Source: Salipiger profundus (GTDB lineage: Bacteria; Pseudomonadota; Alphaproteobacteria; Rhodobacterales; Rhodobacteraceae). Taken from it: DNA of 64,000 nucleotides. Both the position numbers and the translations under genes were made by a program. Numbering within the stretch: position 1 is the first letter of the stretch; each line of letters starts with the position of its first letter. Under the pieces are notes generated by a model. The model ran no database searches, was not told the origin of the DNA, and worked only from the letters and a program-made list of their open reading frames with translations. The stretch spans positions 3,551,501 through 3,615,500 of the forward strand of contig NZ_CP014796.1 of the NCBI RefSeq assembly GCF_001969385.1, written 5' to 3'. Shown piece by piece: positions 10,777-22,200 of this stretch.

Positions 10777-10862
10777 TCGTTTTTCTCCTGAAATGGCGGG
10801 GCGGGCGCAGCAGATCGCGATCTGGCGCCAACACGCCCCTTGGGTCACAATGAAACCTCGTC

Positions 10863-10889
10863 TATATATGTGCTGATGGCATATATATG
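10863..10889. promoter_or_regulatory. AT-rich palindromic operator candidate between MFS and marR
   Basis: TATATATG (10863-10870) and CATATATA (10880-10887) form a perfect inverted repeat around a 9-base spacer. The right arm is itself inside the palindrome CATATATATG (10880-10889). In this GC-rich genome the AT-rich block stands out. It lies between the two divergent starts, so a MarR dimer bound here could repress both genes (inference). Confidence 0.65.
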
Positions 10890-10918
10890 TCAATAGCATC
10901 TATTTGCGCGAGGCAGCT

Positions 10919-11527
10919 TTGAGCGAACGGGACGAAAGACTGAAGGACGATCTGGAACGGGCCGGGATCGGGCGGGAGGTGTCGCAGGCGGCGCTCGACA
11001 TCGACGCCGTGCTGCAACGCTGGCGCCGCCGGGTGATGAAACGCGAGCTGGGCCACGCGGCGCTCAACGATCTGGGCCTCGACCTGGATGTGCCGCAGCT
11101 CGACGTGCTGATGGCGGTGCGCGCGCCGGCAAACGAGTTCCGCGACGAGGACACCGGCTGCGAGACCATGGTGGGCACCGTGGCGGCCCGGCTCGGGATC
11201 GACCCGTCACGCGCGAGCCGCATCACCAGCGAGCTGATCCGGCGCGGCTTCATACGCCGCGAGGTCAGCCAGCAGGACGCGCGCCGCAGCGTGCTTGAAC
11301 TGACCGAGACCGGCGCCAGGATCGTAGAGGCGGTGCGCACCTACAAGCTGCTGGTGCTGGGCTCATATCTTCGCGACTGGCGAAAGGACGAGATCGAGAC
11401 GTTCCTTCCGTTGCTCGAACGGTTCAGCGCGTGGTCCGAGCGGGCGGAGCGGCCGAGCGGGCCTGTGGCGTCCGAAGTGGCGCAACTGCGAGACGCGCTC
11501 GCGGAGCAGGCCGCCCCCGAGGATTGA
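10919..11527 (+). CDS. MarR-family transcriptional regulator
   Basis: About 202 residues, with a winged helix-turn-helix in the middle (ETMVGTVAARLGIDPSRASRITSELIRRGFIRREVSQQDARR), typical of MarR, followed by a dimerising helical tail. No ATG is available. TTG at 10919 is preferred because GAGG lies 6 bases upstream; TTG at 10904 would add five residues. It is divergent from the DHA2 exporter, and a FUSC-type exporter gene follows 103 bp downstream. It probably represses the efflux genes until a toxic ligand binds. Confidence 0.85.
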   Translation: MSERDERLKDDLERAGIGREVSQAALDIDAVLQRWRRRVMKRELGHAALNDLGLDLDVPQLDVLMAVRAPANEFRDEDTGCETMVGTVAARLGIDPSRASRITSELIRRGFIRREVSQQDARRSVLELTETGARIVEAVRTYKLLVLGSYLRDWRKDEIETFLPLLERFSAWSERAERPSGPVASEVAQLRDALAEQAAPED

Positions 11528-11630
11528 ACGTGCGGCAGACCGGCTGTCACCTCCGCGCGAGCGGTCTTCCGCATGTCGCCAGAGGTGCCTAACCGGACGC
11601 CCCGAGACGCCAGCCAGACCGAGACCGTCG

Positions 11631-12635
11631 ATGATGTCCGCGCTACCTTCCGATTTCCGTCCCGACGTCCGACGCGGAACGCAGCTTTTCATAGCGGCCT
11701 TCGGGGCCTTGGCGCTGGCGCATGCGCTGGGGCTGCGAAACCCGTTCTGGGCGGCGATGCCGGTCTGGGTGGTGAGCCAGCCTTGGCGGCAGGATATCCT
11801 GATCCGCGGCGGGCTGAGGCTGCTGGGAACGATGCTCGGTGCGGGCGTGGGCTTTGCCGCGCTGGCCGCTTTCGACGACCCGGTGGCGCTTGCGATCTGC
11901 CTTGCGCTCACCGCCGGTGTCTCGGTCACGGTGGCCTACTGGATCGGCACGATCTACAGCTACGGTGCGCTGATGACCTCGATGACCTGCGCGGTGGTCA
12001 TGCTGCCCGCGCTCGCCGCGCATGACGACGGGCTGGCGCTGGCCGTCGATCGGACGTGGTGCACGGTGATCGGGGTGATGGCGGTCACGCTGGCCACCGT
12101 GGCCTTCACCCCGCCCCGCGAGGAGCCGCATCGCTTCCGCTTCGAGGAACACGGGCTGGCCGTGGCCCTGAGACGGGGCGGCGTCGCGGCGTTCTGCGCG
12201 GTCGCCGGGATCGCGCTGGTGCTCGCCACCGAGAGCTTCGTGGCAGTGGCAGCGGCGCTCTCGATCTGCATCTTCTCGTCGATCATAGGGTCGATGGCCG
12301 ATCCGCGACCGGTCCTCAAGAACCTGCTCCCCGGGGCGACGCTCGGCGTACTGGCGGGGCTGGTCTACCGCCTCGGTGGCGACGCGCTTGGCTTCGGGCC
12401 CGAGGCAATGCTGCTCTTCGCCGCTCTCTTCATCCTGGCCGGAGCGATGATCCGTGCCACGCCTCGCATCGCGCCGCTCGGGCTCGATGGCAACATGTGC
12501 TTCCTGCTCTCGGCCGAGGTCGGGGCGCGCGGCCACGGACCCGTGCTGCACGTGACCAGCGCCATCGCGCTACTCGCGGGGGCCGGCGTCATGGTGCTGA
12601 TCTACCGGGCTCTGCTTGCGAGACAGCTGGTCTAG
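11631..12635 (+). CDS. FUSC-family membrane protein, putative aromatic-acid exporter
   Basis: A 334-residue membrane protein with about ten hydrophobic segments in two similar halves. The N-terminal segment PFWAAMPVWVVSQPWRQDIL followed by GLRLLGTMLGAGVG is characteristic of the fusaric-acid-resistance/AaeB-like family, and a soluble-loop motif FTPPREEPHRFRF follows the first half. Full AaeB proteins have about 650 residues; this is a short single-module form. Start codons ATG at 11631 and 11634 are equivalent. Its position downstream of marR suggests joint regulation with the divergent MFS pump. Confidence 0.75.
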   Translation: MMSALPSDFRPDVRRGTQLFIAAFGALALAHALGLRNPFWAAMPVWVVSQPWRQDILIRGGLRLLGTMLGAGVGFAALAAFDDPVALAICLALTAGVSVTVAYWIGTIYSYGALMTSMTCAVVMLPALAAHDDGLALAVDRTWCTVIGVMAVTLATVAFTPPREEPHRFRFEEHGLAVALRRGGVAAFCAVAGIALVLATESFVAVAAALSICIFSSIIGSMADPRPVLKNLLPGATLGVLAGLVYRLGGDALGFGPEAMLLFAALFILAGAMIRATPRIAPLGLDGNMCFLLSAEVGARGHGPVLHVTSAIALLAGAGVMVLIYRALLARQLV

Positions 12636-13380
12636 GATTGCGTAACGGGCCTTTCGCACCCGCGCCGTGGCAAGGCCGCGGCCAGTGCATCGTCTGGTGA
12701 TCGGTCTGATGGGCCTGACGCGGCGCGTGAGCAGGTCATCGCCGCGTTCTGATCCGGGCGGGATGTCCCTCGAGACTTGGAGCATCCGCAAAACGACGGA
12801 CACCCCGCGAATGCAGCGGAATGCCGTCTTGATGATCCGGATAACCTGCCAAAACCAATGAAGGTTTTGTGGCGGATAGACAGGGATTCGGACCTTGGGG
12901 CCCCGTGAAGGGTCAACGGTTTTCGAGACCGTTTTCTCGGGAAAGGGGCAAGCGCAATCCCCCTGTTTTGTTGGCTCTGCGCAGACGAGTTGCGCGACAT
13001 CGGCAGTTATAGCGGTGCAGGACGGATAGTCAGACGTCATAGTGGTGGCATGCTGCTGGCGTCGTGGACGGCCCAGAGCCGACCTTCGTGCCCTGCGAAG
13101 GGAAGGCCCGGATCGCGCTCTTTCAGGGCAATCCCTTGGCCCTTGGTTGCCGCCGTCCCGATACTCCCCACGATTTTGCGAGACGTCATCAAGAGCATCG
13201 GGTCCGCCTTCAATGACGGCGTTGGCCATTGAGGCTCAGGAGAAACCTTGCTCCGCGGTGCCCTGTGCGGTGATCCTGGCGTTCTCCTCGGAGCAACACG
13301 GTGACAATATTTTCGCTCTTGTGTGCAGCACTGTAGTCGGGGCAGCTTCATGGGACCCCTTCGACCACCCGCGAGGCCCC
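12636..13380. other. Long non-coding region containing a displaced tRNA-Ser fragment
   Basis: A 745-bp stretch between the FUSC gene and the serine-acetyltransferase-like gene. I see no credible gene: short open frames on both strands lack ribosome sites and family features. Bases 12870-12931 are a copy of the 3' two-thirds of tRNA-Ser. The part to its left (12636-12869) should be original chromosome and the part to its right (12932-13380) the left end of the island, if the island model is correct. Confidence 0.6.
12870..12931 (-). repeat. Left att-like repeat: partial tRNA-Ser (3' part)
   Basis: Sixty-two bases match the tRNA-Ser gene from its CCA end through the complete anticodon stem-loop at 58 of 62 positions; the last 31 bases are identical. 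Homology stops abruptly at the 5' side of the anticodon stem, and the 5' half of a tRNA is absent, so this is not a functional gene. The orientation is the same as the intact copy (direct repeat). The preceding bases keep a weak extra match (AAACCAATGAA against AAACCAGTGAA). Confidence 0.85.
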
Positions 13381-14163
13381 ATGAGCCGGAACTCTCTGCG
13401 GCAGACGCTTCTGCCCGACACCCTTGACCGACTCGCCGAAGAGCCGGGGCTGTCAGTGCTGCTTGGGGTCGAAGATGGCGCGCTGACCGATCTGCCGGAC
13501 CTGATGGCCGCCGCGCTGACCGCCTGTTTGCCCGAAGGCCGTGCGCGGGACTGGCTGCGGGGGGTGACGGCTGCACTCTTTCGCCGGGAGCCCGAGGTGC
13601 TGGACACGGCGCTCGACGACCTGCTGCTTACCAGCGCGCGCGACGATCAGCCCGGAGGAGCCCCGCGGGTGCTGCTGTTTGCCAACGGCTATCACGCGCT
13701 TCTGTCCTACCGTGTGAGCCGGGCGCTCTGGCTGGCCGGGCGGGAAGACCTCGCGCTGGCGATCAAGAGCCAGTTCACCCGCGCGCTTTCGGTCGAGATC
13801 TGGCCACAGGCAACCATTGGCCGCGGCGTGTGGTTCGATCACGGACTCGGCTTGGTGATCGGACAGACGTCGGTCATCGAAGAGGGGGTGAGCCTGTGGC
13901 ATGGGGTGACACTGGGGTCGAACTTCGTCGATATGGGTGAAGGGCGGCACCCCAAGCTGCGCCGTGGCGCGGTCGTCGGGGCAGGCGCCAAGATCCTCGG
14001 CCCGGTCGAGGTGGGCGCAGGGGCGACGGTGGCAGCCGGCGCAATCGTGACCAAGGACGTTCCGCCCGGCCACGTGGTGACCGGGCCACGCGGGACCGAT
14101 CGCGGTGCCGGGCGGTTCGCGGGCTTTGTCACGCTGGCTGAATTGAAAGGTGGCGCGGGATGA
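13381..14163 (+). CDS. Serine O-acetyltransferase-like hexapeptide-repeat acetyltransferase
   Basis: A 260-residue CysE/EpsC-type protein. An N-terminal helical domain (about residues 1-120) is followed by a left-handed beta-helix of hexapeptide repeats (about residues 140-230). The helix holds the family motifs RALSVEIWPQATIGRGVWFDHG and VSLWHGVTLGS, with the catalytic-type histidines. The frame is open upstream, but the ATG at 13381 has CGAGG 8 bases before it. It would transfer acetyl from acetyl-CoA to L-serine or a similar amino/hydroxy acid. Its 4-base overlap with a glyoxalase-like gene and its place in a catabolic cluster leave open a role other than cysteine synthesis. Confidence 0.82.
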   Translation: MSRNSLRQTLLPDTLDRLAEEPGLSVLLGVEDGALTDLPDLMAAALTACLPEGRARDWLRGVTAALFRREPEVLDTALDDLLLTSARDDQPGGAPRVLLFANGYHALLSYRVSRALWLAGREDLALAIKSQFTRALSVEIWPQATIGRGVWFDHGLGLVIGQTSVIEEGVSLWHGVTLGSNFVDMGEGRHPKLRRGAVVGAGAKILGPVEVGAGATVAAGAIVTKDVPPGHVVTGPRGTDRGAGRFAGFVTLAELKGGAG

Positions 14164-15056
14164 CCTCGCTGGCGATCGACCATCCGCTGGTCTGTGTGCG
14201 CAATCTGGCCGAGGCGCGTGAGACCTACCTGAAGCTGGGCTTTCTAATGAAGCCGCCGGGGATGCATCCGTGGGGCACATCCACGGCGCTCGTGATCTTC
14301 CGCAACCAGCTGCTGGAGTTGGTAGGTATCGGCGACGAGGGTCTGCTTGACGGATACCCGGCCGGAGATTTCCGGTTCGGCCGCCATGTCCAGCACTGGC
14401 TGGACGAGCGCGAAGGCGTCCCGCTTTCTGCGCTCAACTCAAGCGATGCTGCTGCGGACGAGGCAGCGGTCGTGGCGCGCGGCGGGCACTGCGAGGGGAC
14501 CATCGAATTCGGTCGGGACGTTGTGCGCGATGACGGCACGCCGGATCGCACCGCGACGACGCTGAAGATCTTCACCCGGCCCGGCCTCCCGCGCCTGTCG
14601 ATGTTCGCCTGCCAGCAACACCGCCGCGACCTGATCGAATTTCCGCAATGGATGGACCACCCCAATGGCGCGCATGGCTTTGTCTCGGCCACGATCCTCG
14701 CCGAGCCGAAAGACCAGCCTGCGGTGCGGGACTGGCTGGCCACGCTGCACGGCCCCGGGGCCGTGACCGCCACCGCCGGGGGCTTCGACGTCGCCACCGG
14801 CAAAGGCCACTGGCGGGTGCTGGACCGCGATGCCGCCCGTGCTGTCCTTGGGCCGCTGCCCGATGACCTTGCCCCGGACAGCGCACCCTCGGTGATCTCG
14901 CTCGATGTCGCCTGCCAGGCGCTGGATCGGGTGCGCCCTTTCGTTGAGACCGGCGGCTTCGCAGCTCGTGAGATCGGCGGGGCACTCGTCCTGACCGAGC
15001 CGGCAAAGCTGGGCGGCATCCTGCTGACCTTCCAAGAGGCGCCGAAGGCGCCCTGA
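14160..15056 (+). CDS. Glyoxalase-like (VOC superfamily) domain protein
   Basis: A 298-residue protein whose N-terminus (DHPLVCVRNLAEARETYLKLGF) is the standard opening of a vicinal-oxygen-chelate module of the glyoxalase-like type. The later segment MDHPNGAHGFVSATILAE looks like the start of a second module. Histidines in DHP and DHPNG are candidate metal ligands. It overlaps the acetyltransferase stop (ATGA) and lies 40 bp before the M20 hydrolase gene. No specific reaction can be assigned; VOC enzymes include dioxygenases, isomerases and lyases. Confidence 0.7.
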   Translation: MTSLAIDHPLVCVRNLAEARETYLKLGFLMKPPGMHPWGTSTALVIFRNQLLELVGIGDEGLLDGYPAGDFRFGRHVQHWLDEREGVPLSALNSSDAAADEAAVVARGGHCEGTIEFGRDVVRDDGTPDRTATTLKIFTRPGLPRLSMFACQQHRRDLIEFPQWMDHPNGAHGFVSATILAEPKDQPAVRDWLATLHGPGAVTATAGGFDVATGKGHWRVLDRDAARAVLGPLPDDLAPDSAPSVISLDVACQALDRVRPFVETGGFAAREIGGALVLTEPAKLGGILLTFQEAPKAP

Positions 15057-15096
15057 CGCAAATCCGGACGCCCGCGCGCGTCCCGAAGGAGACCTC

Positions 15097-16236
15097 ATGT
15101 TCGACCAAGACCACATCGCCGAAGCCATTGCCTGGCGCCACGATCTGCACCGCCATCCCGAACTGGGCTTCGAAGAGCACCGGACCTCGGAGATGATCGC
15201 CGGGCTGCTCACCGACTGGGGCTGGCGGGTGCATCGTGGCCTCGCGGGCACCGGCGTCGTCGCGCAGATGGGGCAGGGCGCGCCGGTGATCGGCCTGCGT
15301 GCCGACATCGACGCGCTGCCCATCGTCGAGGCGACGGGTGCGGCCCATGCCTCGACCCTTCCGGGCAAGATGCACGCCTGCGGCCATGATGGACACACGG
15401 CCATGCTGCTGCTGGCCGCGCGCCAGATCGCGGCGGAGGGCGTCGAGACAGGCACGATCACGCTGATTTTCCAGCCCGCCGAGGAAAGCGACGGCGGCGC
15501 GCGGGTCATGATCGAACAGGGGCTGTTCTCTCAGTTCCCGTGCGACAAGGTCTTTGGCATCCACAACTGGCCCGGCGTCGCGCCGGGGCGCTTCGTGGCC
15601 CGCGACGACAAGATGATGGCGGCCTTCTCGGTCTTCGACATCGAGATCCTCGGCAAGGGCGGCCATGGCGCCATGCCCGAACAATCCGACGGGGTGATCG
15701 CCGCCGCCGGGCGCACCGCCGCCGCCTTGCAGGAGATCCCTGCGCGCGCGTTGTCGCCGCTCGAACCCGGCGTGGTGTCGGTCACGCAGATCCACAGCGG
15801 CTCGGCCTACAACGTCTGCCCGGACCGCGCCGTCGTGAGTGGCACCTGCCGCTGGTTCGGCGCCGAGGCCGGCGACATCATCGAGGATCGCCTCCGCCGG
15901 GTGGCCAGCGCCGAGGCCGCCGCGCAGGGCTGCACCGCCAACATCGACTACCAGCGCCGTTATCCCGCGACGATCAACACCGCCCCCGAGGCCGCGCTGG
16001 CCCGTGAGGTCGCGGCCGACATGGGGCTTGATACGTCGATGGTCGGTCCGAGCATGGCCTCCGAGGATTTCGCCTTCATGCTGAACGAGGTGCCCGGCGC
16101 CTACCTCTGGCTTGGTGCTGCGCGCGAGGGCGAGAACCCCGGGCTGCATTCGGCGAAGTTCGACTTCAACGACGCGGTCTTGCCCGCCGGGGCCGAGTTC
16201 TGGGTGCGCCTCGCCCGTCGCGCCACGCAGGGCTGA
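15097..16236 (+). CDS. M20 family amidohydrolase (hippurate hydrolase/N-acyl-amino-acid deacylase type)
   Basis: A 379-residue M20D metallo-amidohydrolase. Metal-binding motifs are HACGHDGH (residues 93-100, with C95 and H97) and PAEE (127-130), with HRHPELGFEEHRTSE near the N-terminus. The lid domain contains GKGGHGAMPEQSD. Such enzymes cleave the amide bond of N-acyl amino acids, hippurate or indoleacetyl conjugates. The start has AAGGAGA at ideal spacing. The stop overlaps the following LysR gene (TGATG). It suggests that the island system deals with an amide-linked compound (inference). Confidence 0.9.
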   Translation: MFDQDHIAEAIAWRHDLHRHPELGFEEHRTSEMIAGLLTDWGWRVHRGLAGTGVVAQMGQGAPVIGLRADIDALPIVEATGAAHASTLPGKMHACGHDGHTAMLLLAARQIAAEGVETGTITLIFQPAEESDGGARVMIEQGLFSQFPCDKVFGIHNWPGVAPGRFVARDDKMMAAFSVFDIEILGKGGHGAMPEQSDGVIAAAGRTAAALQEIPARALSPLEPGVVSVTQIHSGSAYNVCPDRAVVSGTCRWFGAEAGDIIEDRLRRVASAEAAAQGCTANIDYQRRYPATINTAPEAALAREVAADMGLDTSMVGPSMASEDFAFMLNEVPGAYLWLGAAREGENPGLHSAKFDFNDAVLPAGAEFWVRLARRATQG

Positions 16237-17144
16237 TGGACGCGCTCGACAGCCGCTTCCTGCGCGAATTTCTCGCGGTCGCGCAGGAGGGCTCGATCCG
16301 CCGGGCGGCGGATCGGCTGAACGTCGTGCCTTCGGCGATTTCACGCAAGATCGCCGATGCCGAGGTCCGGCTCGGGGTCACGCTCTTCGAGCGTAGCTCC
16401 AGGGGCGTGACGGTGACCGAGGCCGGGGAACTGCTGCGAGAGCATGCACTGCACCTGCAGGACGAACAGACTTTCCTTCTTGACCAGATTGGCCGGTATC
16501 GCGCGGGCCAGACCCAGACCGTGCGCATCGCACTTGGGGAGGGGTTCACCGCCGACCTGATGGAGAATGGCCTGGCGGAGCTGAGCCGTCAGCAGCCCGA
16601 TCTGCGCATTTCCATGGATCACGCTGGCACCGAGGAGTTGCAGCGCCGGGTGGTCGAGGGCGAGGCCGATATCGGGATCGCCTACAACCCGCTGCTGACA
16701 GAGGCGACGCGCTCGCTGGCCATGGGGCGCCAGCCGCTCTGCGCCGTGGTGCCCGCGAATTCATCACTGGCGGGGCGGCGGAGCGTGGGGCTGGCCGAGG
16801 TGCTGGAACATCCCGTTGCCATGCTCGATGCCCGCCACGCCATCCGGCACCTCGTGGGGCAGGTCGCCGCCGACCGTGGTCTGGCACTGCGGGTGCATGT
16901 GGAGACCTCCTCCATCGCGCTGCTGATCCGCTACGTGAGCGCGGGCATCGGCGTGACCTTCCTGCCGAGATTTTCTGCGTCAATTCAAGCAGCTCGCGGT
17001 GACCTGGCGGTGATCGAGCTGGACGAGCCGGCGCTGCACCGGGTCAGCACGCACCTCATGGTGCGGGCCCGCCGGCGCCTGCCGAAATCGGTGGACCTGG
17101 TGGCCACCTTCCTGTCGGACCGCATGGTGGCCTTCCGCCGGTGA
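16236..17144 (+). CDS. LysR-family transcriptional regulator (island cluster)
   Basis: A 302-residue LysR regulator. The HTH is at about residues 5-60 (SRFLREFLAVAQEGSIRRAADRLNVVPSAISRKIADAE), followed by a substrate-binding domain. It is co-oriented with, and overlaps, the M20 gene rather than being divergent, so it is probably made with the cysE-like/VOC/M20 genes. A striking 11-bp inverted repeat begins 6 bp after its stop and lies upstream of the dehydrogenase operon, and is the obvious candidate binding site. The regulator thus sits between the two halves of the cargo cluster. Confidence 0.9.
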   Translation: MDALDSRFLREFLAVAQEGSIRRAADRLNVVPSAISRKIADAEVRLGVTLFERSSRGVTVTEAGELLREHALHLQDEQTFLLDQIGRYRAGQTQTVRIALGEGFTADLMENGLAELSRQQPDLRISMDHAGTEELQRRVVEGEADIGIAYNPLLTEATRSLAMGRQPLCAVVPANSSLAGRRSVGLAEVLEHPVAMLDARHAIRHLVGQVAADRGLALRVHVETSSIALLIRYVSAGIGVTFLPRFSASIQAARGDLAVIELDEPALHRVSTHLMVRARRRLPKSVDLVATFLSDRMVAFRR

Positions 17145-17149
17145 TCCCC

Positions 17150-17172
17150 CGCGTTGCCATCATGGCAACGCG
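17150..17172. promoter_or_regulatory. Perfect 11-bp inverted repeat, probable regulator site
   Basis: CGCGTTGCCAT (17150-17160) and ATGGCAACGCG (17162-17172) are exact reverse complements around one central base. It lies right after the LysR stop and 102 bp before the dehydrogenase start. The tight symmetry fits a dimeric repressor or LysR recognition site better than a terminator, since no T-run follows. Confidence 0.6.
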
Positions 17173-17230
17173 ATGTGCGCGATATGCCCCCTACCTGTGA
17201 ACGCCGTTCCTCCGGTTAGCTGTGTGGAAC

Positions 17231-17250
17231 GCCAGCCAAGGGTGGCTGGC
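17231..17250 (+). promoter_or_regulatory. Leader hairpin upstream of dehydrogenase operon
   Basis: GCCAGCCA (17231-17238) and TGGCTGGC (17243-17250) pair around a 4-base loop. The hairpin ends 23 bases before the start codon, so it would lie in the mRNA leader close to the ribosome site (CAGGAG). It may affect mRNA stability or translation; no T-run follows. Confidence 0.4.
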
Positions 17251-17273
17251 CAAGCACAACGACAGGAGATCAC

Positions 17274-18185
17274 ATGGCAACAGAGACAGGCAAACGGGCC
17301 GGGGTGATCGGACTTGGGGCCATGGGATTTGGCATGGCGTCGAGCCTTGTGCGCGCCGGGTTCGAGGTCTCGGGCTTCGATCCTTCCCCCGCGGCGCAGG
17401 ACCGCGCCCACGAGGCGGGCATCGCGCCACTGGCGACCCCCGAGGACGTCGTTGCCGCCGCAGAGGTGATCGTGCTTTCGCTGCCCACGGCAGCGCATGT
17501 CGAAGGCGTCATTTCCGCGGCACGGGACGCGGGGCTGCTGGGCGCGGACACCGCGGCCAAGGTCATCATCGACACCTCCACCTCCGAGGCCGAGGTCAGC
17601 CGCAAGCTTTCAGCGGCGCTTGCCGAGGAGGGGCACGGCTTCCTCGACGCGCCGGTCAGCGGCGGGCCCGCGGGCGCGGCCGCAGGCCAGCTTTCGGTCA
17701 TGCTCGGCGGTGACGAGAAATGGGTCACCGCGGCGATGCCCGCGCTCGAGGCGATGGCGGCGAAGATCCTGCACGTCGGCCCGAGCGGCGCGGGCAATGT
17801 GGCCAAGCTGGTCAACAACATGCTGGTCGCCAGCCACATGGTTACCACGCTCGAGGCGCTGCGGCTGGCCGAAGCGTCGGGCGTTGGCGCCGAAGACGCG
17901 CTGCGGGTGATCAACTCGGCCACCGGGCGCAGCGCGATCTCGGAAATCCACTATCCCAACTGGGTGCTGCCGCGCAGCTTCGACAGCGGCTTCAGCACCG
18001 GGCTGATGCGCAAGGATGTGCGGCTTGCCCGCGAACTGGCGCAAAGCGTCGGATGCGCCATGCCGGTGGCCGACCTGGTGGCGGACCTCTGGGCCGAGGA
18101 GACCTCGGGCCTGAAGGACGCCGACGATTTCATGCACATGGGCGATCCCACGGTGGACCGCCTGAGCCAGAAGGAAGACAAGTGA
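17274..18185 (+). CDS. NAD(P)-dependent beta-hydroxyacid dehydrogenase (3-hydroxyisobutyrate dehydrogenase family)
   Basis: A 303-residue protein. The Rossmann motif GLGAMG is at residues 13-18, the substrate-binding signature FLDAPVSGGPAGA is present, and the catalytic lysine is K178 in GNVAKLVNN. Family members oxidise 3-hydroxyisobutyrate, tartronate semialdehyde-related acids, threonate and similar beta-hydroxyacids. A ribosome site (CAGGAG) precedes the ATG. It ends in a TGATG overlap with the aldehyde dehydrogenase, so an alcohol-to-aldehyde-to-acid sequence is likely. Confidence 0.9.
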   Translation: MATETGKRAGVIGLGAMGFGMASSLVRAGFEVSGFDPSPAAQDRAHEAGIAPLATPEDVVAAAEVIVLSLPTAAHVEGVISAARDAGLLGADTAAKVIIDTSTSEAEVSRKLSAALAEEGHGFLDAPVSGGPAGAAAGQLSVMLGGDEKWVTAAMPALEAMAAKILHVGPSGAGNVAKLVNNMLVASHMVTTLEALRLAEASGVGAEDALRVINSATGRSAISEIHYPNWVLPRSFDSGFSTGLMRKDVRLARELAQSVGCAMPVADLVADLWAEETSGLKDADDFMHMGDPTVDRLSQKEDK

Positions 18186-19720
18186 TGGCCAAGGACATCA
18201 TCGATACCGCGGCCCGCGTGGCCGAGCTGCTGAAGGACCTGACAGGCTCCTCCGAAGTGCAATCCTGGGTTGGCGGCGAACTGGTGCCGGGCACCGGGCA
18301 CGCACTGGAGCTGACCGACCCCGCGACGGGCGAGGTCTTCGCCCGCTACAAGGACGCTGGTGCCGACGTCGTGGCACAGGCCGCCGAGGCTGCCACTCGC
18401 GCGCAGAAGGAATGGTTCGCCAAGACCGCTTCCGAACGCGGCCGCATCATGTTCGAGATCGGCCGCCAACTGCGCGCCAATTCCGCCGCGCTGTCAGAGC
18501 TCGAGGCGCTCTCCTCGGGCCGTCCGATCCGCGACACGACCGGCGAGCCTGCGCGCATGGCCGAGATGTTCGAATATTACGCCGGCTGGTGCGACAAGAT
18601 CAGCGGTGACGTGATCCCGGTGCCCTCGACGCATCTCAACTACACCCGGCACGAGCCGCTTGGCGTGGTCAGCCAGATCACGCCGTGGAACGCGCCGCTG
18701 TTCACCTGCTGCTGGCAGGTCGCCCCGGCGATCTGCGCCGGCAACGGCGTGATGATCAAGCCGTCCGAACTGACGCCGCTGTCGTCCATCGTCACCGGCA
18801 TCCTCTGCGAGAAGGCGGGCGTGCCCAAGGGCCTCGTTAACGTCATCGCCGGTGATGGTCCGGGCTCCGGTCAGGCGATGATCGAGAACCCGGCGACGGC
18901 GCTGGTGGTTTTCGTCGGCTCCGCAGAAGCGGGATCCAAGATCGCGGGCGCAGCGGCCAAGCGGCTGGTGCCCTCGGTGCTCGAACTGGGCGGCAAGTCG
19001 GCCAACATCGTCTTCGGAGATGCCGACCTCGATCGCGCCGTGGTGGGCGCGCAGGCGGCAATCTTTGCTTCCTGCGGTCAAAGCTGTGTGGCTGGCTCGC
19101 GCCTGCTGGTGCACCGCTCGGTGCATGCCGAGATGGTCGAGAAGCTGAGTGCCGCCGCCGGCAATATCCCCGTCGGCGCGCCGATGGACCCGGCGACGCA
19201 GATCGGTCCGGTGAACAACCAGCGGCAATGGTCGAAGATCGACGAGATGGTGCGCGAAGCCGTGAGCCAGGGCGGCGAGATCACCAGTGGCGGCGCGAAA
19301 CCCGCAGCGCTGACGGAAAGCGGCGGCTTTTTCTTCGCCCCCACCGTGGTCGACCGGGTGACCCCGCAGATGACCATCGCCAACGAGGAAGTCTTCGGCC
19401 CCGTGGTGTCCGTTCTGCCCTTCGACACCGAGGAGGAGGCGATCGCGCTGGCCAATGCCACGCCCTACGGCCTTGCCGGCGCGGTTTGGACGCAGGACGT
19501 GGGTCGGGCGCACCGCATGGCGGCAGAGGTCCGGGCGGGCACCTTCTGGGTCAACAGCTACAAGACGATCAACGTCATGTCGCCCTTCGGCGGCTTCGGG
19601 CGCTCGGGCTATGGCCGCTCGTCGGGCCGCGAGGCGCTGGCCGCCTACACCCAGACCAAGTCCGTCTGGGTCGAGACCGCGGCGAACCCCGCGCAGGGCT
19701 TCGGCTACGCGCCGGGCTGA
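18185..19720 (+). CDS. Aldehyde dehydrogenase family protein
   Basis: A 511-residue NAD(P)-dependent aldehyde dehydrogenase. The catalytic cysteine is C301 in GQSCVAG, the general-base glutamate lies in LELGGKSANIVF, and the cofactor site shows PWNAPLF and IKPSELTPLSS. The frame is open upstream, but the ATG at 18185 overlaps the preceding stop. It probably oxidises the semialdehyde made by the upstream dehydrogenase to a carboxylate. The exact substrate is unknown. Confidence 0.92.
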   Translation: MAKDIIDTAARVAELLKDLTGSSEVQSWVGGELVPGTGHALELTDPATGEVFARYKDAGADVVAQAAEAATRAQKEWFAKTASERGRIMFEIGRQLRANSAALSELEALSSGRPIRDTTGEPARMAEMFEYYAGWCDKISGDVIPVPSTHLNYTRHEPLGVVSQITPWNAPLFTCCWQVAPAICAGNGVMIKPSELTPLSSIVTGILCEKAGVPKGLVNVIAGDGPGSGQAMIENPATALVVFVGSAEAGSKIAGAAAKRLVPSVLELGGKSANIVFGDADLDRAVVGAQAAIFASCGQSCVAGSRLLVHRSVHAEMVEKLSAAAGNIPVGAPMDPATQIGPVNNQRQWSKIDEMVREAVSQGGEITSGGAKPAALTESGGFFFAPTVVDRVTPQMTIANEEVFGPVVSVLPFDTEEEAIALANATPYGLAGAVWTQDVGRAHRMAAEVRAGTFWVNSYKTINVMSPFGGFGRSGYGRSSGREALAAYTQTKSVWVETAANPAQGFGYAPG

Positions 19721-19820
19721 AGCGCCCGGATCGCCGAAATTTCGAACCGCTGCGGACCGGGTAAGCGCCCGGTCCCGGCCAATACGCCCCGCCCCAAGGG
19801 GCACGACAGAGAGGGTCCTC

Positions 19821-20636
19821 ATGCCAATAAAAGACATTCTGACCGACTGGCGCCTGCATGGCAGCGTGCTTGTCATCACCGTTATCGCCGAGCTTGTCGG
19901 CGTCATCGCCGTGCCGATCGGCATCGGCTCCATCCTGCTGTTGCCGCTGCTCTACGCCTTCGTCATGGGGCTGCTGATCAACCCCAACGTGATCTCGGGC
20001 GCCCGCGCGCTGATCCGCGATCGGGAGGTACATGCCGCCTCGCCGCTGATCGTCATCGCCATCATGCCCTTCATTGCCAAGTTCGGCACGATCATCGGCC
20101 CGTCCATGGAGCAGATCATCGCCGCGGGTCCCGCGCTGATCCTGCAGGAGCTGGGCAACCTTGGCACCATCCTGCTGGCCTTCCCGGTCGCGGTGCTTGT
20201 GCTGCGCATGGGCCGCGAGTCCATCGGTGCCTGTTTCTCGGTCGCGCGCGAACCCAACATCGCGATCATCGCCGACAAATACGGCCTCAAGAGCCAAGAA
20301 GGCGCCGGTGTCATGGGTGTCTACGTGATCGGGACGCTCTTCGGCACGTTCATCTTTGCCATCCTCGCGTCGATCCTGGCGACGACCGGGGCCTTCTCGG
20401 TCGAGGCGCTGGCCATGGCCTGCGGCATCGGCTCGGGCAGCATGATGGCGGCCTGCTCGGGCGCTCTGGTGCATGCGGTGCCCGAAATGGAAGAGCAGAT
20501 CCTTGCGCTGGCCGGCGCGTCCAACGTGCTGACCTACGCCACCGGTCTCTACCTCTGCGTCTTCGTGGCGCTGCCGTTGACCGAGAAACTCTACGACCTG
20601 CTGGGCCGCAAAGAGCCCTCGAACGCCGGAGCCTGA
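19821..20636 (+). CDS. DUF3100-like multi-pass membrane protein
   Basis: A 271-residue membrane protein with about eight hydrophobic segments. It begins MPIKDILTDWRLHGSVLVIT and has a strongly conserved-looking core with GLLINPNVISG, FGTIIGPSMEQII and CGIGSGSMMAACSGALVH. I recognise it as probably DUF3100, a family without known function. The symmetric glycine-rich re-entrant-looking stretches resemble secondary carriers (inference). The ATG at 19821 follows GAGAGGG. It lies 100 bp after the aldehyde dehydrogenase and 3 bp before a second small membrane protein, so the two are probably one transporter. Confidence 0.7.
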   Translation: MPIKDILTDWRLHGSVLVITVIAELVGVIAVPIGIGSILLLPLLYAFVMGLLINPNVISGARALIRDREVHAASPLIVIAIMPFIAKFGTIIGPSMEQIIAAGPALILQELGNLGTILLAFPVAVLVLRMGRESIGACFSVAREPNIAIIADKYGLKSQEGAGVMGVYVIGTLFGTFIFAILASILATTGAFSVEALAMACGIGSGSMMAACSGALVHAVPEMEEQILALAGASNVLTYATGLYLCVFVALPLTEKLYDLLGRKEPSNAGA

Positions 20637-20639
20637 GCC

Positions 20640-21119
20640 ATGAGCGACATCCAATCCCAAGACCTCGATCCGACCGAAGAACTCAAGCTCGGCCTCGGTG
20701 CCCATGCCGCGGCGCTGGCGGTGGTCTGCGTGATCGCGCTGGTGGGCAACACCGTGGCGACCGAAAACACCGTTCCCCAGGGGCTGGTGGGGCTGATCAT
20801 CCTGTGGGTGATGTGCATGATCGGCATGCTTCTGACCAGGTTCGTGCCGTTCAAGCTGCCCTCTGTCGCGTGGATTTCCGCCGTCGGCATTCTGGCCACC
20901 ATGCCCTGGACGCCGGGCAGCGCCTGGGTCCTCGACAAGGTCAGCCACGTGAATTTCCTGACGCTGGCAACGCCCTGCCTCGCATATGCCGGCATCGCGA
21001 TCGCCAAGCGCGAGATCGAGATCGCCAAGGCCTCGGGCTGGAAGATCGCCGTGGTTGCCGTGTTGGTGATGACCGGCACCTACGTGGGCTCGGCCATCGT
21101 GGCGCAGGCGTTCCTCTGA
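20640..21119 (+). CDS. Small membrane protein, partner of the DUF3100-like protein
   Basis: A 159-residue protein with a polar N-terminus (about 25 residues) and four to five hydrophobic segments. I do not recognise the family. The start follows the previous stop by three bases. The close coupling suggests a two-component membrane system with the DUF3100-like protein, like the split large/small subunits of some carriers. It is the last intact gene of the island cargo; a 12-bp hairpin follows. Confidence 0.65.
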   Translation: MSDIQSQDLDPTEELKLGLGAHAAALAVVCVIALVGNTVATENTVPQGLVGLIILWVMCMIGMLLTRFVPFKLPSVAWISAVGILATMPWTPGSAWVLDKVSHVNFLTLATPCLAYAGIAIAKREIEIAKASGWKIAVVAVLVMTGTYVGSAIVAQAFL

Positions 21120-21135
21120 TCACGTCCTGATCCCC

Positions 21136-21164
21136 GCCACGGGCCGTGCTCAACGGCCCGTGGC
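21136..21164 (+). terminator. Hairpin terminator of the island operon
   Basis: Perfect 12-bp arms (21136-21147 and 21153-21164) with loop GCTCA begin 16 bases after the stop of the last membrane-protein gene. The stem is very GC-rich, but no clear T-run follows, so termination may be partial or Rho-assisted. Confidence 0.6.
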
Positions 21165-21319
21165 ATCCATACGCTGTCGGGCAACGTACGACTGGCGGTC
21201 CTTTCCTGTGGTCGTCGCGGCGAATGACGGGTTCCCGCCGATGCTGTTGAGAAAGTCTTTGTTGCAGTGCGGCAAGTCTCTCGTTTCACCCGACGATGAG
21301 GGGATGAGAGGAAATCGGG

Positions 21320-21696
21320 ATGATGGGTCGGCAGGACGCTCCAGTGCAGCTGTTCTATGAGTTCAATCTGGACCGTCATGTCCCGGCCAATCATATGCTG
21401 CGAGAGATCGATCTGTTCCTTGACGGTGACAGCCTGCGGGAGGCGCTGCGACCGTTCTACAGCCACCTTGGCCGCCCCTCCATCGACCCCGAACTGATCA
21501 GTCGGATGCTGGTGATCGGCTACGTCATGGGCATCCGGTCTGAACGACGCCTGTGCAACGAGGTTCATCTGAACCTGGCCTATCCTTGGTTCTGCCGGTT
21601 GGGCCTGGAGGGCAACGTCCCGGATCATTTGACCTTCTCGCGGTATCGCCACGGCAGGTTCCGGGAAAGCAACCTGCTGCGACAGGTGTTTGAAGA
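21320..21696 (+). pseudogene. Truncated IS1182-type transposase (N-terminal part)
   Basis: About 125 codons match the N-terminal DUF772-type domain of IS1182-family transposases (QLFYEFNLDRHVPANHML, SIDPELISRMLVIGYVMGIRSE and DHLTFSRYRHGRF). A good start at ATG 21320 follows AGAGG. Similarity stops at about 21694; the DDE catalytic region is absent, and the frame runs on for only 20 unrelated codons. The preceding 150 bases have no gene and may hold the left end of the IS. The element was truncated by an event whose other end lies in the recombinase remnant. Confidence 0.75.
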
Positions 21697-21892
21697 TGAG
21701 CCTTCGGCGCCCGACTCCATGACATCCGCCACAAGTTCGCAATCGAACGGCTGAGGGAAGGGCGGGGCGGTCTATCGCGTCCAGCGCTACATTGGCCACG
21801 GATCTGTGAACACGACCGAGCGCTATTACTTCCGCTACCTATCGCAGGAGCAGCAGGAGATCGCTAACGCTGATGGGAATGCCGGTCCCTGA
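21697..21892 (+). pseudogene. Tyrosine recombinase (integrase) C-terminal remnant, frameshifted
   Basis: In one frame, 21703-21762 reads ARLHDIRHKFAIERLREG, the HxxR catalytic box. In the next frame, 21770-21889 reads VYRVQRYIGHGSVNTTERYY and on to IANADGNAGP, then a stop. This is the GH...T..Y catalytic end with the nucleophilic tyrosine. Removing one G in the G-rich run near 21766 joins both parts. The N-terminal and core-binding domains are lost; the sequence upstream is the transposase fragment. It reads towards tRNA-Ser, 219 bp away, and was probably the island integrase. Confidence 0.78.
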
Positions 21893-21916
21893 ACCAGCAT
21901 GGCATCTGCCCGAAGC

Positions 21917-21940
21917 AGCCCCGCTCGAAACGGCGGGGCT
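21917..21940 (+). terminator. Possible terminator after the integrase remnant
   Basis: AGCCCCGC (21917-21924) pairs with GCGGGGCT (21933-21940) around an 8-base loop; a weak T-rich tail (TCGTCGTTT) follows. It lies 25 bases after the recombinase stop. The remaining stretch to the tRNA (21941-22110) holds no gene that I can support. Confidence 0.45.
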
Positions 21941-22110
21941 TCGTCGTTTCAGGACATCTTCCGGGATGTTCAGTGGCACCAACGGCGGCATCTCGGCATA
22001 GTCGGTGCAACCGGGGGGAAAGTCGTCATAATATGCCGAATCTGGCATTTCACGGCTCTTACGACCCGCAAGAGCGGGTAGGACCAGAAACCAGTGAAAT
22101 AAGGCCAAAG

Positions 22111-22172
22111 TGGCGGAGAGACAGGGATTCGAACCCTGGGACCCCGTGAAGGGTCAACGGTTTTCGAGACCG
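22111..22172 (-). repeat. Right att-like repeat inside tRNA-Ser
   Basis: These 62 bases, from the CCA end through the anticodon stem-loop, recur at 12870-12931 in the same orientation with four substitutions, at positions 8, 22, 26 and 31 of the repeat. All four lie in the acceptor and T-arm side; the anticodon side is unchanged. Confidence 0.85.
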
Positions 22173-22200
22173 CCCCGTTCGACCACTCCGGCACCTCTCC
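22111..22200 (-). tRNA. tRNA-Ser(CGA)
   Basis: A 90-nt type II tRNA on the minus strand. The acceptor arm GGAGAGG pairs with TCTCTCC (one G-T pair), the discriminator is G, and CCA is encoded at 22111-22113. The anticodon loop CTCGAAA carries anticodon CGA (22164-22166), a long variable arm (TTGACCCTTCACGGGGTC) is present and the T-arm loop is TTCGAAT. It decodes UCG. Its 3' part doubles as an att-like repeat, so the present gene may be a hybrid of chromosomal 5' and island 3' sequence. Confidence 0.97.

Follow-up and report, generated by a model that had tools for sequence, protein, structure and literature searches.

What is the DNA that separates the tRNA-Ser(CGA) gene of Salipiger profundus from an incomplete second copy of that gene some 9 kb away? 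Both lie in a stretch of 64,000 nucleotides (NZ_CP014796.1, positions 3,551,501 to 3,615,500), called here the window, within which all positions are counted unless another sequence is named. Our reading, to which we give a probability of roughly 0.92, is that 12869-22172 is an integrase-dead relic island of a subfamily of tyrosine integrases that insert at tRNA-Ser(CGA), with attachment (att) sites at both ends. ARAGORN called tRNA-Ser(CGA) as the sole tRNA of the whole window, and a repeat finder paired its 3' part, at 22110-22172, with a direct repeat of 63 nucleotides at 12869-12931 (94% identity, 59 of 63 positions; starts 9241 bp apart). The repeat is the 3' part of tRNA-Ser(CGA) in the same orientation, in the same replicon and downstream of the gene, the tRNA being on the minus strand and the fragment at lower coordinates. 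When the fragment was compared by BLAST with its own genome (5.42 Mb, nine contigs; all six candidates scored), only the fragment itself, tRNA-Ser(CGA) (E 3.2e-21) and one site of 74% identity about 0.7 Mb away were found, so the repeat is not a chance match. The first-pass annotation of this DNA had given a 62-bp repeat from 12870 with 58 of 62 matches and a loss of identity at the anticodon stem, in agreement with these figures and with the end of the identity, which falls within the 5' strand of that stem. Its statement that a search for intact tRNAs would miss both repeats was mistaken, as the right-hand repeat sits in the intact tRNA that ARAGORN found. Immediately to the left of the displaced fragment, at 12850-12869, there is a hairpin (CAAAACC/GGTTTTG) which by eye resembles tRNA-side hairpins in relatives; it may be the terminator that the tRNA gene formerly had.

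Next to the tRNA, inside the unit, an earlier claim of a tyrosine-recombinase remnant proved real. One frame translates to RLHDIRHKFAIERLREG and the following one to VYRVQRYIGHGSVNTTERYY..ANADG; together we take them to be the C-terminal end of a tyrosine recombinase. With whole integrases as queries, positions 21703-21762 matched residues 298-317 of an integrase from another genome (G171) with 95% identity over 20 amino acids, and positions 21758-21886, in a different frame, matched residues 316-358 of the same protein with 84% identity over 43 amino acids. Joined as one query, the two frames gave 88% identity over 58 amino acids to the integrases of G171 and G150 and 72% to that of G032. The remnant ends about 220 bp from the tRNA, compared with about 230 bp for the integrase gene in G032.

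That G032 integrase came from PF00589 matches in 14 chosen genomes; among the matches listed, it is a 365-amino-acid open frame adjoining tRNA-Ser(CGA). A search with it through 295 genomes of the bacterial family, with at most six candidates scored per genome, found relatives in five (G032, G149, G150, G164, G171). In all five the integrase gene points at the 3' end of an intact tRNA-Ser(CGA) 226-249 bp away; four copies are free of internal stops, and the G150 copy has two. In G032 (C1:3551361-3600372) the subfamily integrase occurs twice at tRNA-Ser(CGA), apparently as a tandem, and the second copy is shortened and lies beside a displaced fragment. In the window's own genome, with 6 of 24 candidates scored, the G032 integrase matched nothing at E 1e-25. 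In phage and plasmid collections the G171 integrase matched 76 and 103 records, respectively, every best place being below 60% identity, and among solved structures four sequences matched the integrase weakly.

The breakpoint of the displaced fragment is common to other genomes as well. A search for tRNA-Ser fragments in six further genomes showed that in five (G090, G032, G149, G164, G171) a fragment breaks off at the base where the window's own does (22172), and in the sixth, G150, this search found no tRNA-Ser fragment. In G164 and G171 fragment and tRNA are on different contigs, and the assemblies give no distance between them. G090 was grouped with the others by breakpoint and motifs only. 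When the six distal fragments, that of the window and those of the five genomes, were aligned, 21 bp, CAACGGTTTTCGAGACCGTTT, were identical in all, and past the break all six read TTT, against CCC in the window's tRNA. In the window and the five other genomes the match to the tRNA is lost inside the anticodon stem, on its 5' side, a known subsite for crossover in tRNA genes. Because the 21-bp segment is an inverted repeat centred on the seven-base anticodon loop, we infer that the crossover took place at this loop, with the 21-bp segment as its core. About 45 bp inside the break the distal fragments have an AT-rich box, which reads AATAAAATAAGG in G032, G149 and G164 and approximately its reverse complement in G090 and G171.

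Short motifs on both sides of the presumptive core were also held in common. The interval between integrase and tRNA contains GGCATAGTCGG followed by a site like GTCATAGTATG in seven sequences from six genomes, and inside the far end five relatives carry two copies of G(G/T)CATAG 13 bp apart, of which the window has one whole and the first short by one base. Matrices for the two pairs were each built from five sequences of other genomes, with the letters of the window excluded, and both strands of the window were scanned. The attL matrix scored best at 21993, with 40.3 bits; further sites listed on the plus strand scored 14.8-16.1 bits and the best minus-strand site 15.1 bits, all of them sharing a half with the pair at 21993, whereas the best distant site listed scored 13.6 bits and sites without a shared half at most 14.8 bits. 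The attR matrix gave its best score, 19.0 bits, at 13022, and the next was 11.2 bits. Both best sites thus fell at the expected ends and on the expected strand. As judged from their sequence and placement, these arm-type motifs on both sides of the core are probably integrase-binding sites.

Table 1. Features of the relic unit and of the genes between its ends (window positions)
Feature	Positions	Strand	Basis or remark
Intact tRNA-Ser(CGA)	22111-22200	minus	ARAGORN
attL, att segment on 3' side of intact tRNA	22110-22172	-	repeat finder and alignment
attR, displaced 3' fragment of tRNA-Ser(CGA)	12869-12931	+	59/63 against 22110-22172
Putative attR core, 21 bp	12914-12934	+	inverted repeat; 7-bp centre is the anticodon loop
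Candidate attL-side arm-type sites GGCATAGTCGG and GTCATAATATG	21993-22037	+	shared motifs and matrix test
Candidate attR-side tandem arm-type repeats	13022-13043	+	13-bp spacing in relatives
C-terminal remnant of tRNA-Ser(CGA)-linked tyrosine integrase	21703-21889	+	about 60 amino acids, one frameshift, reads towards tRNA
5' part of IS1182-family transposase gene	21320-21694	+	profile positions 3-122 of 488
Colinear operon block (cysE-like gene to small open reading frame)	13224-21186	+	85-88% DNA identity to same-genus copies
Serine-acetyltransferase (cysE-like) domain open reading frame	13042-14163	+	true start probably within the frame
Glyoxalase-like protein	14160-15056	+	PF13468
M20 amidohydrolase	15097-16236	+	domain scan
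LysR-type regulator	16236-17144	+	domain scan
3-Hydroxyisobutyrate-dehydrogenase-like protein	17274-18185	+	below NCBIfam equivalog cut-off
Aldehyde dehydrogenase domain	18296-19666	+	within open reading frame 17720-19720
DUF3100 domain	19881-20597	+	within open reading frame 19455-20636
Small open reading frame	20640-21119	+	no Pfam family above its cut-off

The proposal of the first-pass annotation that this unit is a relic genomic island is therefore upheld by the position of the integrase relatives beside tRNA-Ser(CGA) in five of five genomes, the breakpoint common to five other genomes, and the arm-type sites at both ends. We propose that an element with a tyrosine integrase inserted at the anticodon loop of tRNA-Ser(CGA). 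Integration would have replaced the 3' part of the gene with one supplied by the element, now at 22110-22172, and displaced the original 3' part of the host to 12869-12931, leaving arm-type integrase sites inside both ends; the copy taken as host-derived now shows four differences, none of them within the 21-bp core. The integrase would later have been destroyed. A fragment of an IS1182-family insertion sequence (IS), the first quarter of its transposase gene, scored 118 bits in NCBIfam, under the cut-off of 270 as expected of a fragment, and abuts the frameshifted last 60 or so codons of the integrase. Because this fragment stops right before the remnant, the loss of the integrase is likely to have come from a deletion after IS insertion. 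As only a frameshifted remnant of about 60 amino acids is left, we regard the unit as a relic and not as a complete member of the island group. Its present interior would be a catabolic operon of the genus. We infer that an integrase of this subfamily moved the element and that the steps followed in this order, with the operon perhaps travelling along.

The first-pass annotation had predicted that closely related genomes would show an empty site. Neither among the matches listed nor in the 16-19 kb read downstream of the tRNA was the sequence to the left of 12869 beside tRNA-Ser(CGA) in any of 19 same-genus genomes; in these scans for the tRNA and the operon two candidates were scored per genome, and fragments in other relatives may be missed. 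The DNA now on the left was not the original neighbour of the tRNA, and because none of these genomes showed a counterpart of it there, an empty site is not demonstrable within the genus. Relatives of its FUSC gene were found at 31 named loci in other genera; in nine of these 31 that were scanned for tRNAs there was one tRNA-Ala and no tRNA-Ser. The MarR gene of the left flank (10904-11527) is 78-79% identical to the copies in G018, G001, G019 and G007, the mmsA genes being about 94% identical to the first two, and from these sequences it looks like a replaced copy.

The downstream side of the tRNA looks like a hotspot; its open reading frames (ORFs) vary strongly among the 19 genomes. The first neighbour is a gene of about 170-220 amino acids in six of them (G005, G014, G010, G011, G009, G015), the same gene is 4 kb away in G016, and unrelated ORFs stand there in most others; the 80 bp adjoining the tRNA differ by eye apart from a few look-alike groups. 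In G005, G009, G010 and G015 mmsA is 8-9 kb away from the tRNA; in G016 the two are about 12 kb apart, and in the genome studied here (G000) about 206 kb.

Outside the genus, the prediction was borne out in part by G149 and G371, which belong to one genus. In G149 an element of 20 kb ends in a fragment, followed by host DNA, and in G371 the same host DNA occurs about 0.5 kb past the tRNA, without the 20 kb. Beside the G371 tRNA, 123 bp (L226, 2022-2144) are 72% like the tRNA-side arm of the element, and G371 thus looks like an almost erased relic. In G372 and G373 there are about 9 kb of other DNA at the same place. G090 was unusable as an empty-site control, because a stretch of about 360 bp that covers its fragment and runs past it is 97% identical to its own tRNA side.

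Several observations weigh against the relic-island reading. The integrase is present as a remnant only, and Pfam alone gave the longer piece E 0.15 and did not match the shorter one. The choice of motifs was not blind, as they were first noticed with the window in view; the attL pair of the window is 4 bp tighter than the five others (within the allowed range of spacing), and one of its attR copies is without one base. G090 has no integrase of the subfamily within the 19.9 kb read. For this genome no true empty site came to light. Of the left-flank stretch 10850-12931, the MarR part alone matched same-genus genomes at E 1e-22 (12 of 19, at most 79% identity), at other places. G371 is not a clean substitute, because about 0.9 kb beside the G149 fragment is unmatched in it. 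Finally, the operon block between the ends also occurs elsewhere in the genus, and its guanine-plus-cytosine (GC) content is like that of the flanks.

This last point bears on the most serious alternative, that the island ends are real and the operon is not their cargo, having entered later or having been recruited through an IS from another replicon or place in the genus. We consider this tentative, with a chance somewhat short of even. The comparison covered eight same-genus loci matching the first gene, with two candidates scored per genome. At least 7 of the 19 same-genus genomes (G016, G010, G015, G001, G005, G011, G014) carry the block, each on a contig other than that of tRNA-Ser(CGA), with matched starts at 13224-13505 and matched ends at 21158-21186; G009 has pieces of it only. 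Four of the copies (G015, G005, G011, G014) have flanks in common, G010 and G001 share no flank longer than 200 bp, and G016 was outside the flank comparison. The GC content is 0.678 in the block and 0.675 and 0.664 in the flanks of the unit, as against 0.606 and 0.589 in the short relic ends, and the IS1182 fragment lies between the operon and the integrase remnant. On the other hand, no mark of a second insertion, such as a target-site duplication or a complete IS, was identified (no special search for one was made), and islands can hold host-like DNA.

The same data divide what had been claimed earlier for the interior. A contrast in GC content was seen for the short relic ends, which are lower, and not for the operon, for which GC as a sign of foreign origin was unsupported. 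The genes do form a colinear block, but a single coherent island cargo is the weaker claim, given the flank-like GC content, the copies on other contigs, and an IS1182 fragment before the integrase remnant. The same gene order without a tRNA-adjacent site, which had been named as an observation that would speak against an island, does occur in relatives for the operon alone and not for the ends of the unit.

Identities suggest that the operon moved within the genus, with mmsA as the one core gene for comparison. Between G000 and G001 the operon is 88.4% identical, lower than mmsA (93.9%), and between G001 and G010 it is 91.1% identical, higher than mmsA (86.0%). For G018, whose mmsA is 93.5% identical to that of G000, there was no operon match among the matches listed. 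The operon tree still groups G000 with G001 (0.84). The operon may have come separately from the island ends.

It is less probable, and in our judgment unlikely, that the two ends derive from two tandem elements of the same family, each of which kept a single att end when the DNA between was deleted. The second integrase copy beside a displaced fragment in G032 is a tandem-like arrangement of this kind, and the window does show a deletion that cut into the integrase; yet the own genome shows one displaced fragment only, and this course takes more steps than an internal deletion in a single element. Chance duplication or gene conversion of the tRNA without any mobile element is very improbable, for although partial tRNA copies can have other origins, CRISPR arrays being one example (PMC9897764), it leaves the integrase remnant, the common breakpoint and the motifs at both ends unexplained.

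The kind of event proposed for the relic island is already known, and the window's unit is a further case. Islands in tRNA genes as Islander treats them (PMC4383910) consist of an intact tRNA gene, a displaced 3' fragment downstream and the island between them, and an integrase filter is applied. The window's unit is like them in its intact tRNA gene, its downstream 3' fragment in the same orientation, and its anticodon-centred crossover of class 'A'; it is unlike them in that its contents are reduced by decay and that, in place of an integrase gene inside the interval, it has only the frameshifted remnant, and because it has no intact integrase the filter as described there would reject it. 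No relaxase or secretion domain was found in the ten scanned ORFs of the unit, which thus showed none of the conjugation genes of an integrative and conjugative element. In structure the unit is like a cis-mobilizable element (CIME), which by definition (PMC5704250) has lost its integration and transfer genes and kept its attL and attR sequences; the window has no intact integrase and retains both att sites as sequence features. It differs from the CIME described there in having no tandem partner, and its parent may or may not have been conjugative.

In PMC3146451 the same terms are applied to fifteen Dehalococcoides islands at ssrA that lack integration modules. They share with the window's unit an RNA-gene hotspot, fragments in direct repeat, metabolic cargo and the occurrence of members that have no integration module; they differ in that a serine recombinase and tmRNA are involved there, and a tyrosine integrase and tRNA-Ser(CGA) here. 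Paracoccus prophages (PMC6536676) are likewise tyrosine-recombinase elements at the 3' sides of serine tRNAs, probably in the same bacterial family, but these are phage genomes at tRNA-Ser(GGA) and tRNA-Ser(GCT), and the likeness noted is one of site. In the titles and abstract openings listed by the literature searches we found no report of this integrase family, of its arm-type sites or of tRNA-Ser(CGA) islands in this bacterial family.

A further counterpart is the 20-kb element of G149, which has the same tRNA, the same fragment breakpoint, the same arm-type sites and a subfamily integrase with an open frame of 365 amino acids, but contains defence-type genes and no catabolic operon. At 8883-19160 of L181 (G149) there are a cytosine methyltransferase, Vsr, an MzaB-like protein, an SNF2 helicase and a SoFic-like protein. 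Judged by eye from motifs, the island presumably also contains an HNH protein and two further tyrosine recombinases.

The relic island would escape methods that require an integrase, though several marks of it concur, and its arm-site pattern offers a handle for finding other dead islands of the family, of which members with an open-frame integrase do exist; its interior also illustrates that contents within island boundaries need not share the origin of the island. A much wider proposal is doubtful: that within this bacterial family one group of mobile islands is specific to tRNA-Ser(CGA), with an arm-site code of its own on both sides and at least one member carrying defence genes, and that the relic here retains enough of its two att sites to be mobilised still by an intact relative. 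If the proposal were true, an incoming intact relative would give the resident catabolic operon a route between species.

Elsewhere in the own genome (G000 contigs C1, C3, C6, C7, C8 and C9) at least 14 places gave tyrosine-recombinase matches of equal score. These places, on the largest contig and on smaller ones, consist of three neighbouring open frames of 427, 464 and 416 amino acids, which we take to resemble 'recombinase in trio' elements.

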